Assembly: GCA_035577985.1 (NCBI GenBank)
Contig: DATJZY010000045.1
Span: forward strand, 1 to 64,000
From: Candidatus Eisenbacteria bacterium
GTDB taxonomy: Bacteria; Desulfobacterota; Binatia; DP-6
DNA: 64,000 nucleotides
Reading direction: 5' to 3'
Shown: piece by piece, positions 12,412 to 14,884 of the stretch
How positions within the stretch are numbered: position 1 is the stretch's first letter
Layout: every line of letters starts with the position of its first letter
Notes under the pieces: model-generated
Databases searched by the model: none
What the model was told of the DNA's origin: nothing
What the model saw: the letters and a program-made list of their open reading frames with translations, nothing else
Made by a program: the position numbers and the translations under genes

Positions 12412-13185
12412 ATGCTCGCGGTGATGACGCTCTGGCAGCGGGAGATCGTGCGCTTCGTGCGGCAGCGCAGCCGCGTCGTCGGGGCGCTCGTGCAGCCGAT
12501 CGTGTTCTGGATCCTCCTCGGCGGCGGGCTCTCGGCGTCGTTCCGCCCGCCCGGGACACCCGCGGGGACGGGCTACCTCGAGTACTTCTTTCCGGGGACG
12601 ATCGCGCTGGTGCTCCTCTTCACGGCCATCTTCGCGACCATCGCCGTCGTCGAGGACCGGCGATCGGGGTTCCTGCAGGGCGTACTCGTCGCGCCGGTCC
12701 CCCGGCGCAGCATCGTCCTCGGCCAGACGCTGGGCGGTACGACGCTGGCGGTGGTGCAGGGGCTCCTCTTCCTCGCGATCGCGCCGCTGGCCGGCATGCC
12801 GCTCACGGCGCTCCGCGTGCTCGCGACGACCGGCACGATGGCCCTCGTCGCCTTCGGGCTCACGAACCTCGGCCTCCTGATCGCGTGGCGCATGGAATCG
12901 ACGCAGGGATTCCACGCCATCATGAACCTCATCCTGCTTCCGATCTGGTTCCTCTCCGGCGCGTTCTTCCCGGCCACCAACGCACCGACGATCCTGCGCT
13001 GGCTGATGCAGCTCGACCCGCTGACGTACGGCGTCGCGGCGGTGCGCTCGTGCATGTACCTCGGCGGCGACGCCGGCTTCGGGGAGCTGCCGGGGCTCGG
13101 CGTCTCGCTCGCGATCACCGCGGCGTTCGGGCTCGTCACCTTCGTGGCGGCGACGGCGGTGGCCGAGCGCAGCGCCACGCTCTGA
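12412..13185 (+). CDS. ABC-2 type transporter permease
   Basis: 257 residues with six hydrophobic segments, beginning MTLWQREIVRFVRQRSRVVGALVQPIVFWILLGGG, the usual cytoplasmic coupling helix and first membrane span of ABC-2 permeases. The family's conserved LPIWFLSGAFFPATNAP is followed by LDPLTYGVAAVR. It partners the ATPase just upstream (2-base gap) to form an exporter. Clustering with an epimerase and two glycosyltransferases suggests a surface polysaccharide or glycolipid as cargo, though NodJ/DrrB-like drug or lipid export cannot be excluded. It is the last gene of the plus-strand locus and converges on the oxidase operon. Confidence 0.88.
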   Translation: MLAVMTLWQREIVRFVRQRSRVVGALVQPIVFWILLGGGLSASFRPPGTPAGTGYLEYFFPGTIALVLLFTAIFATIAVVEDRRSGFLQGVLVAPVPRRSIVLGQTLGGTTLAVVQGLLFLAIAPLAGMPLTALRVLATTGTMALVAFGLTNLGLLIAWRMESTQGFHAIMNLILLPIWFLSGAFFPATNAPTILRWLMQLDPLTYGVAAVRSCMYLGGDAGFGELPGLGVSLAITAAFGLVTFVAATAVAERSATL

Positions 13186-13218
13186 GGAACGTCTTCGTAG
13201 CAGCGCAGCGTCGGTGCC

Positions 13219-13339
13219 GCGAGGCTGGGGGCGAGGCTTCGGCTTCGGCTCCGCCGCGCGACAAGACAATTGCGTCGTCACGGCCCTTGCACTTCGTCGC
13301 GCCGCTTCGCAGGCGCCTCCGCCTCGCCCCCAACCTCGC
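13219..13339. repeat. Inverted repeat 1 (19-bp arms, 83-bp loop)
   Basis: Left arm 13219-13237 (GCGAGGCTGGGGGCGAGGC) pairs with right arm 13321-13339 at 18 of 19 positions. Total length is 121 bp. The loop contains CAATTG and shorter complementary segments. Confidence 0.7.
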
Positions 13340-13431
13340 GACAAACGACGCCCGCCACGACTGCTCTCCCTCAACGGTGACGCGGGCGAGCCAGCGGCGA
13401 CGCCCAACGTGACGTCGGCCGGGCCGGCGGT

Positions 13432-13555
13432 GCGCGGGGCGGGCGGCGAGGGCGGAGCGCCCTTGAGCCGCGCCGGCGCTCCGTCGTGGCGATGCTCGGC
13501 AGGCTGGGATCGCCGCGCGGCGAATTAAGCGGAGCCCTCGCCGCCCGCCCCGCGC
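13432..13555. repeat. Inverted repeat 2 (21-bp perfect arms, 82-bp loop with two inner hairpins)
   Basis: Left arm 13432-13452 is the exact reverse complement of 13535-13555 (21 bp). Inside the loop a perfect 9-bp hairpin (13453-13461 with 13475-13483) directly abuts the outer stem, and a 6-bp hairpin (13488-13493 with 13509-13514) follows. A transcript of either strand could fold into a three-way junction of 124 nt. Confidence 0.75.
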
Positions 13556-13581
13556 TCCACGCCCGCGGCCAAGCGAAGACA

Positions 13582-14109
13582 CTACGGCTGGATCGCCAGG
13601 TGACGATGCCCGCGCCAGAACGTCATGGCCATCGCGCCCGCCGCGAGCAGGTTGCCGACCACGATGGCGGGCCAGGCGACGGCCTGGAGGACGGGCTCGG
13701 CGAACAGCATGCAGGCGCCGACGAAGCCGAACTCGAAGACGAAGAAGAGGAGGAGGATACCGAAGCCGGCGTGCGAGTTGTGCTCGGCGAGGAGCAGCAG
13801 GCGCGCGGCCACCATGCCGACGCACAGGAACACCAGCATGTGGATCCAGGTGAAGCTGAGGACGACCTCCAGCGACGGCGCGAGCGTCGCGGGATTCTCG
13901 AGCCCCGCGCCGCCGCGGAAGATGGCCATCCCGAGCACCGTCGGCGTGTAGAGCCAGCGGCCGCTCAAGCCGTCGAGGAGGGCGAACCAGAGGGCGATCG
14001 TCGCGGCGCCGATCAGGCCCGCGCGAATGCCTTCGGAGTAGGCGGTGACGAACTCCCGGTCCCGGACTTCGATCGTGACGGGATCGAGCGCACCGGTCTG
14101 CGTGGCCAT
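13582..14109 (-). CDS. Four-span membrane protein of the oxidase operon, unknown function
   Basis: 175 residues, with an N-terminal soluble segment of about 25 residues and then four hydrophobic spans (around AGLIGAATIALWFALLDG, WIHMLVFLCVGMVAARLLLL, GFGILLLFFVFEFGFVGACM and AVAWPAIVVGNLLAAGAMAM). I do not recognise a named family. The ATG is well supported by AAAGGAG about 8 bases upstream. It is the last gene of the oxidase block, 184 bases after sco, with its own promoter candidate. Proximity suggests a role in oxidase assembly or membrane organisation, but nothing in the sequence shows it. Confidence 0.75.
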   Translation of the reverse strand: MATQTGALDPVTIEVRDREFVTAYSEGIRAGLIGAATIALWFALLDGLSGRWLYTPTVLGMAIFRGGAGLENPATLAPSLEVVLSFTWIHMLVFLCVGMVAARLLLLAEHNSHAGFGILLLFFVFEFGFVGACMLFAEPVLQAVAWPAIVVGNLLAAGAMAMTFWRGHRHLAIQP

Positions 14110-14125
14110 CGGGCGACTCCTTTCA

Positions 14126-14144
14126 GGCGCCCCGGCGGGGCGCC
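14126..14144 (-). promoter_or_regulatory. GC hairpin just upstream of a Shine-Dalgarno
   Basis: GGCGCCCC and GGGGCGCC form a perfect 8-bp stem with a 3-base loop, ending 2 bases before the AAAGGAG of the gene starting at 14109. No U-tract follows on the minus strand, so it is more likely a leader or mRNA-end structure than a terminator. Confidence 0.45.
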
Positions 14145-14164
14145 GGTCATCGAGCCTGGGTCGA

Positions 14165-14193
14165 CCACTACGCTCGCACCGCGGGGCCGTCAA
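14165..14193 (-). promoter_or_regulatory. Promoter candidate for the membrane protein gene ending at 13582
   Basis: On the minus strand TTGACG (14193-14188), 17-bp spacer, TAGTGG (14170-14165). Transcription would start near 14158, giving a leader of about 50 bases that contains the GC hairpin and the AAAGGAG ribosome site. Confidence 0.45.
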
Positions 14194-14293
14194 CGGTAGT
14201 GCCAGCGCGCAGGCGGGGCGGTTCTGGGCGCGATCGGCAGCCGGCGCGAAGCGCGACCGGTATCGCCGCACAGCAGGTGCCAGGACGCGGCGC

Positions 14294-14884
14294 TCAGCGG
14301 CCGGGGCCGGTGGCGAGTCGTGTGGCGTCGTCGGCGAGACGCCGCAGATCGTCGGGATCGGAGCCGTGGTAGTAGCCGCGGATTCGCAGGTCGGCGTCGA
14401 CCAGGACGAAGCGATCGCTGTGGGTGATCGGCCCCGACGGCGGCCCGTCGTCCGCGAACGCGACGTGGAAGCCGTCCTTCAGGAGCGTCGAGACGTCGTC
14501 GCGCGGCCCGGTCGCGAACTGCCAGCCGGGGCCCGCGTGGTGGGCCGTGGCGTAGCCGCGCAGGACCTCCGGTGTGTCGTACCCCGGATCGACGCTGAAC
14601 GAGACCAGCGTCACGGGTGCGGCGGACGCAGCGAGGGTCTGCTGGAGATCGCGCATCCGCGACGTCAGCAGCGGACACACGTCCGGACAGCGGGTGAAGA
14701 TGAAGTCGGCGATCCAGACCTTGCCGCGGAGATCGTCCTGCGTGAGCGGGGTCCCCGCGCGCTCGGTCATGTGGAACGCGGGGACGGTGCCGAGCACCGG
14801 GAGCGCGGGCGTCCCGCAGGCTGCGAGGGCGACCGCGAGGGCGACGAGCCGGCGCCGCCGAAGCGAGCGAATCGCCGCCGTCAG
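14294..14884 (-). CDS. Sco1/SenC-type copper chaperone lipoprotein (CTG start)
   Basis: 196 residues. Sco proteins insert copper into the CuA centre of cytochrome oxidase subunit II. The copper-binding TRCPDVCP (CxxxC) motif and the distal His in THSDRFVL are present in a thioredoxin-like fold. From CTG 14884 the protein begins MTAAIRSLRRRRLVALAVALAAC, a textbook lipoprotein signal with the lipobox Cys. The nearest GTG (14797) would delete the signal, and no ATG, GTG or TTG exists in frame between it and the upstream gene. The CTG overlaps the cox4 stop (CTGA), so coupled initiation is likely. Confidence 0.85.
   Translation of the reverse strand: MTAAIRSLRRRRLVALAVALAACGTPALPVLGTVPAFHMTERAGTPLTQDDLRGKVWIADFIFTRCPDVCPLLTSRMRDLQQTLAASAAPVTLVSFSVDPGYDTPEVLRGYATAHHAGPGWQFATGPRDDVSTLLKDGFHVAFADDGPPSGPITHSDRFVLVDADLRIRGYYHGSDPDDLRRLADDATRLATGPGR

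Follow-up and report, generated by a model that had tools for sequence, protein, structure and literature searches.

We propose that the two palindromes E1 and E2, which share one convergent spacer of the window (the whole 64,000-nucleotide stretch that was analysed), belong to a superfamily of oriented, non-autonomous REP-like palindromic elements of ~120-135 bp that are mobilised as folded single-stranded DNA, a reading that we hold with moderate confidence. The many copies, their fixed polarity with respect to upstream stop codons, their structure and their conserved core are all observed, and the superfamily has one build, in which a variable outer stem of 19-25 bp surrounds a conserved asymmetric core. 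Mismatches within the stems favour the antisense strand as the folded one.

E1, E2 and their relatives

The two palindromes face each other in the window, one for each of two convergent genes (Table 1). E1 begins 23 nt past the stop of the forward-strand gene and E2 approximately 23 nt past the stop of the reverse-strand gene, the 175-aa product of which had no Pfam match at E<=1e-5. For E1 the preliminary description gave arms of 19 nt that differ at one pair and a loop of 83 nt, exactly as we find them, the mismatch being a C opposite an A; for E2 it was right that the arms are perfect, although they measure 22 bp rather than 21 and enclose 80 nt rather than 82. Both strands of each element outdo all 200 of their dinucleotide shuffles in folding, with folding energy z-scores of -4.0 (+) and -7.8 (-) for E1 and -4.3 (+) and -5.0 (-) for E2. 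That neither is a product of chance follows from the dozens of E1 copies, the several E2 copies and the compensatory changes among copies described below; further copies and pairing conserved in relatives, on which the preliminary description had staked its proposal, are both present.

Table 1. Positions of the two elements, their parts and the flanking genes in the window
Feature	Positions	Strand	Basis or remark
Putative ABC-2-type permease gene (by context), upstream of E1	12412..13185	+	ORF, gene prediction, homologues
E1	13209..13344	+	covariance model R1 match
E1 outer stem, 5' arm (pairs with 13321-13339, one mismatch)	13219..13237	+	inverted repeat; compensatory changes in 20 copies
E1 5' core segment TTCGGCTTCGGCTCCGCCGCGCGAC, asymmetric internal loop and inner stem	13238..13262	+	near-invariant in 20 aligned copies
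E1 3' core segment GTCGCGCCGCTTCGCAGGCGCCTCC	13296..13320	+	near-invariant in 20 aligned copies
E1 outer stem, 3' arm	13321..13339	+	inverted repeat; compensatory changes in 20 copies
E2	13429..13558	-	genome copies, model R2
E2 outer stem, sense 3' arm	13432..13453	-	
E2 3' core GCCGGCGCGGCTCAAGGGCGCTCC	13454..13477	-	kept across genera
E2 5' core TCCGCTTAATTCGCCGCGCGGCG	13511..13533	-	in other copies, inserts at the point matching 13524/13525
E2 outer stem, sense 5' arm (22 bp, perfect with 13432-13453)	13534..13555	-	
Convergent gene preceding E2, 175 aa	13582..14109	-	gene prediction

The genome that holds the window (G000) is a draft assembly of 5.7 Mb in 191 contigs, and in it BLAST, with 40 of 176 candidates scored, returned at least 54 matches to E1. 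An alignment of 20 E1 copies (A2) was made into covariance model R1, which gave at least 83 matches, opposite-strand echoes of the palindrome included (150 of 15,879 candidates scored), and when run on 60 fetched stretches and the window it resolved these into at least 62 distinct E1 places, a lower bound that includes partial places at contig ends. E2 is rarer than E1, with about eight substantial copies and some fragments, and copies lie near an E1 on the same contig on C45, C133, C126, C176, C118, C181 and C136. Inverted pairs of E1, one per convergent gene, occur also on C42 and C167, and C184 carries a second, partial and inverted E1 at its end. Across ~464 kb of own sequence (the window and L250-L269), gene gaps of 20-600 nt yielded a single inverted repeat scoring >=18, in a convergent gap, so that the elements are uncommon and gene ends do not carry them as a rule across the genome.

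E1 and E2 are joined by two models of which neither holds an E1 row: R2, made from E2 and two elements of a relative (G004), and R3, made from 16 E2-type elements. As both nonetheless match E1 copies, and on the E1 sense strand (12 of 12 E1 rows compared for R3), E1 and E2 constitute one superfamily. The two palindromes are thereby related non-coding elements, as had been suggested, and both are real, but the independence also claimed for them falls. At E<=0.001 R3 has matches in five of the seven genomes of the family (17 in G000, 27 in G004, 5 in G003, 2 in G001 and 2 in G006), counts that include some opposite-strand echoes of the same place. Relatives of the elements were found in four further genera of this family and, beyond it, in a single genus from another family of the class (G054), where R2 matched a short relative of 82 nt, a minimal version made up of stem and core only. 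Within the class R2 matched 5 of 118 genomes, and within the phylum R3, under a strict filter that loses weak matches, matched 2 of 297 including the own genome. Most E2-type elements have CTCCGCTTCGRTTCG...CTCAYAGGCGCTSCG as their conserved core, which the subfamilies of G004 vary.

Four loci of G004 (L330, L332, L333 and L334) form a third subfamily with a GAGCGGGGCGCGGGG-like stem, whose flanks past the stem are also common, GTTCGTGGACGGG-like before and CCGT after, so that the unit of this subfamily may exceed the hairpin. One or two copies were seen in G001 (L302, L314) and G054 (L277), genomes that are otherwise without them. Searches with the E1 core pattern in genome_contigs, with the G004-type core in viral_contigs and with the G004 element L279 against plasmids gave no match, and a search of the open-access literature, with subscription journals mostly outside it, found no paper on these elements. 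In other genomes, homologues of the window permease were checked at 19 of 80 loci, and the 260 nt next to their stops hold no palindrome like these, which is weak evidence because these homologues are only 58-72% identical to it. Judged by the best hits of this permease, the organism may be close to Candidatus Binatia or 'Deltaproteobacteria' MAGs.

Compensated stems, polarity and insertion

Changes in the outer stem are nearly all Watson-Crick-compensated on both sides. Among the 20 E1 copies 98.9% of cells pair and 23 cells carry two-sided changes (4.5 in shuffles), with helix 3 contributing 16 two-sided changed cells and not one that is one-sided; among the 16 E2-type elements 97.1% of cells pair and 61 carry two-sided changes (15.9 in shuffles). 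Neither 23 nor 61 was equalled in any of 500 shuffles, and while these counts are non-independent, the copies being related, the near absence of one-sided intermediates is notable. Two-sided change reaches 16 of the 22 outer pairs of the E2-type elements, for which slid controls are only 38-54% paired. Furthermore, the two arms are 97.1% identical within a copy versus 84.9% between copies.

The position of E1 is equally regular. With genes called by a simple codon-usage predictor trained on the window, the upstream neighbour lies on the E1 sense strand in 54 of 62 places, at a median stop-to-E1 distance of 12.5 nt over those 54, and its stop is no more than 45 nt away in 53 of the 62. Stops within 45 nt are found on the sense side only in 31 places, on the antisense side only in 1, on both in 22 and on neither in 8. 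The gene context is convergent in 33 places, tandem in 9 and divergent in 3, the remaining 17 being at a contig edge, and E1 thus has the REP feature of lying at 3' ends between convergent or co-directional genes. Since the median convergent gap in our own sample is 6 nt, E1 greatly lengthens a spacer that would otherwise be tight. Where the 5' end of an E2 copy is readable, it lies 18-36 nt past a sense stop in six of seven cases, the exception being on C126, and the 34 places outside the own genome (from G001, G003, G004, G006 and G054) have a sense stop within 45 nt in 26, an antisense stop only in none and neither in 8. It follows from this polarity of the E1 and E2 copies that in the window E1 belongs with the forward-strand gene ending at 13185 and E2 with the reverse-strand gene ending at 13582. 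Counting against the model that we prefer are the 8 of 62 E1 places and the 8 of 34 places elsewhere where a facing stop is missing from the 45 nt to both sides. The genes upstream of E1 are ordinary chromosomal ones, of which 20 of 52 closely follow a gene of the same direction; from the 52 associated proteins extracted, 18 were tested, and the Pfam matches of 17 are varied (adenylosuccinate synthetase, SelB, transporters).

Pairing between flanks is better when both belong to one E1 copy than when they come from different copies. In the 55 places left after 7 of 62 lying too near a contig or locus end were dropped, the duplex energy rank of the flank pair is <0.05 in 12, and ungapped stems across E1 reach p <0.05 in 10, where 2-3 are expected (Mann-Whitney p 8e-5). 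About a fifth of E1 copies therefore top a locus-specific hairpin, as if inserted in a pre-existing loop. Stops of the own genome without elements have a hairpin (score >=9) in 11.0% of 60-nt stretches versus 0.8% of shuffles (73 stretches).

E2 is itself interrupted. On C118 (L041 1-122), C133 (L023 1599-1693) and C136 (L022 1-95) it runs into one common sequence, which opens a frame MKSMIWLGL, and on C56 (L149 end) and C147 (L148 1-140) the other E2 half runs into a second sequence; both joined sequences bear ATGAACGGC/GCCGTTCAT near their ends as subterminal inverted repeats. To judge from these ends they appear to be one IS110/IS1111-like element at a fixed E2 point, and one that is probably multicopy because contigs break inside it. 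Its transposase was not recovered, the single IS110 gene of the genome being a different one, and its ends had no match among plasmids. On C176 (L134 2700-3420) E2 is split at the same point, ~13524/13525 of the window, by 567 bp with junctions G^TTGGAC and G^TTCGCC, the GTCTAAC near one end matching the GTTGGAC of the other. This insert is a probable integron gene cassette with an attC-like end, and its 94-aa frame had no Pfam match.

The folded strand and the competing explanations

The mismatches that persist in the outer arms distinguish between the strands. Read on the sense strand, A.C mismatches outnumber G.T by 16 to 3 in 53 E1 copies (9 of 62 places, shorter than 128 nt, dropped). Outside the own genome the ratio is 10 to 2 over 30 elements, 4 of 34 having been dropped for a length below 114 nt. 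Pooled, they stand at 26 versus 5 and are spread across many positions; given the kinship of the E1 copies these counts are non-independent, and the ratio is ~18 versus 5 when each position and mismatch type is counted once. Since a sense-strand A.C corresponds to a G.T wobble in the antisense, this speaks for the antisense strand, as DNA or RNA, as the constrained molecule and against a sense RNA. For 48 of 53 E1 copies the antisense strand is also predicted to give the more stable fold, but the G004 elements have no strand difference in predicted stability (11 of 22). A mutation bias of the template strand could mimic the A.C excess.

In the model that we prefer, the elements would spread as DNA. 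The antisense strand would fold into a hairpin while single-stranded, and a recombinase would recognise the folded element through its core and insert it in a fixed orientation at gene 3' ends, in many cases where a native hairpin offers its loop. Once in place, the elements may separate neighbouring genes as a 3'-end barrier, an effect that selection could favour. The mobility, the enzyme and any role in termination are thus what we infer, and a search of the own genome for a partner recombinase among the Y1_Tnp, IS110 and integron-integrase families found none. More tentatively, and as an idea that we rate as rather unlikely, the superfamily might be a separate class of mobile DNA in which the core is the unit and the stem is free to vary if paired, with polar insertion after stops as folded antisense DNA by way of an unrecognised recombinase, often in native hairpins, and with templated copying, instead of selection on RNA, keeping the arms identical.

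The alternative that survives best, although we consider it doubtful, is that E1 and E2 encode a structured 3'-UTR RNA or a terminator without a U-tract, the sense hairpin of which ends or protects the upstream mRNA, such that copies spread because they are useful. This would account for the fixed sense polarity a few nucleotides past stops, for the strong stem covariation and for the excess of hairpins at own-genome stops over shuffles (11.0% versus 0.8%). Selection on a sense RNA would be expected to leave G.U wobbles, but these are rarer than A.C (5 versus 26), the opposite of that expectation. No Rfam family fits E1 or E2: there was no match at gathering score, and an E-value scan of six loci gave chance-level hits only. 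The structured RNA offered by the preliminary description is hence disfavoured in its stable sense-strand form, by the mismatches and by the better antisense fold of E1 alike. An intrinsic terminator with a U-tract is rejected, as TTTT occurs within 20 nt downstream in 0 of 55 E1 copies and the region 12900-14300 has no terminator-like site, in agreement with the earlier statement that these are not simple terminators.

It is improbable that the elements are classical REPs whose mobilising RAYT was lost or overlooked. Their location, their inverted pairing and the want of a dedicated transposase do fit the CGTC REPs as described in the survey of Di Nocera et al. 2013 (PMC3733652), and 21 of 62 E1 places start with CGTC (16) or TGTC (5), a start that is absent from G004 copies; most E2 copies have GGCGT before the stem. 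Against this, the elements are 121-135 nt long rather than 20-40, and Y1_Tnp (PF01797) had no match in the own genome, though control genomes matched. Y1_Tnp gene counts among relatives do not track the number of elements, and R3, even at E<=0.1, had no match in eight Y1_Tnp loci (L304-L311); on these grounds RAYT-driven REPs are rejected. Y1-transposase genes that look RAYT-like by eye are common in relatives (L307, L308, L310, L311), and none was found in G000.

The least credible explanation is that the elements are integron-like attC sites, hairpins past stops in which an integron-type integrase would act on the bottom strand to recombine it. The IS110/IS1111-like element at the fixed E2 point would accord with this, as members of IS1111 are described as targeting attC sites or REPs (PMC11187229). 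So would the C176 copy of E2, which holds its probable integron gene cassette at the core G^TT of that same point. An attC is an imperfect palindrome past a stop codon, with fixed polarity and a folded antisense strand, and has ends of the form RYYYAAC ... GTTRRRY. The position, polarity and antisense folding of our elements are alike, but this pair is absent from the element ends as read by eye, the upstream genes are ordinary chromosomal ones with a co-directional gene often close upstream, and the integron integrase (TIGR02249) had no match above cut-off in the draft own genome, which may lack one and gave partial sub-threshold matches, so that the explanation is rejected on the end sequences and the want of an integrase above cut-off.

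Comparison with known elements

REPs are the closest known kind. In the account of the 2013 survey, GTAG- and CGTC-tagged REPs are palindromes of 20-40 bp, with a stem of 8-9 bp in the CGTC class, and REPs and BIMEs are extragenic, lie mostly in convergent or unidirectional gaps near ORF 3' ends and form inverted dimers (PMC3733652). E1 and E2 resemble them in being dispersed, near ORF 3' ends and in inverted pairs, and resemble the CGTC REPs of that account in that no dedicated transposase was found and perhaps in the CGTC or TGTC with which E1 often begins. They differ from REPs as described there in being of a 120-135 bp type, with a stem of 19-25 bp and a conserved asymmetric core, and the tag is not kept across genera in this superfamily. 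The label REP/BIME-like, proposed in the preliminary description, therefore suits how the elements behave, as dispersed repeats that lie at the 3' ends of genes and often come as inverted pairs, but not a strict REP, for which they are 3-4 times too long, model matches spanning ~120-140 nt against 20-40 bp, and for which no RAYT was found.

The elements bear on the spread of REP-like repeats that have no transposase and on the reason for their position at gene ends. The CGTC class stood without an assigned enzyme in the 2013 survey (PMC3733652). The present superfamily spans genera with fixed polarity, and its conserved core could serve as bait for the missing enzyme. Furthermore, the strand bias of mismatches provides a test of DNA-level versus RNA-level function that is applicable to other REP families.

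The elements share with attC sites the form of an imperfect palindrome past a stop, the fixed polarity and, probably, the folding of the antisense strand, and differ from them in being without the core-site sequences and outside cassette arrays. Like the REP and attC targets described for IS1111/IS110 members, E2 carries an IS110/IS1111-like insert at one fixed point, although the target here is a different palindrome family (PMC11187229). Finally, by its description, YPAL, the Yersinia palindromic sequences of 130-169 bp, and other stem-loop repeat families are similar to E1 and E2 in length and in having a predicted conserved secondary structure (PMC2267715).
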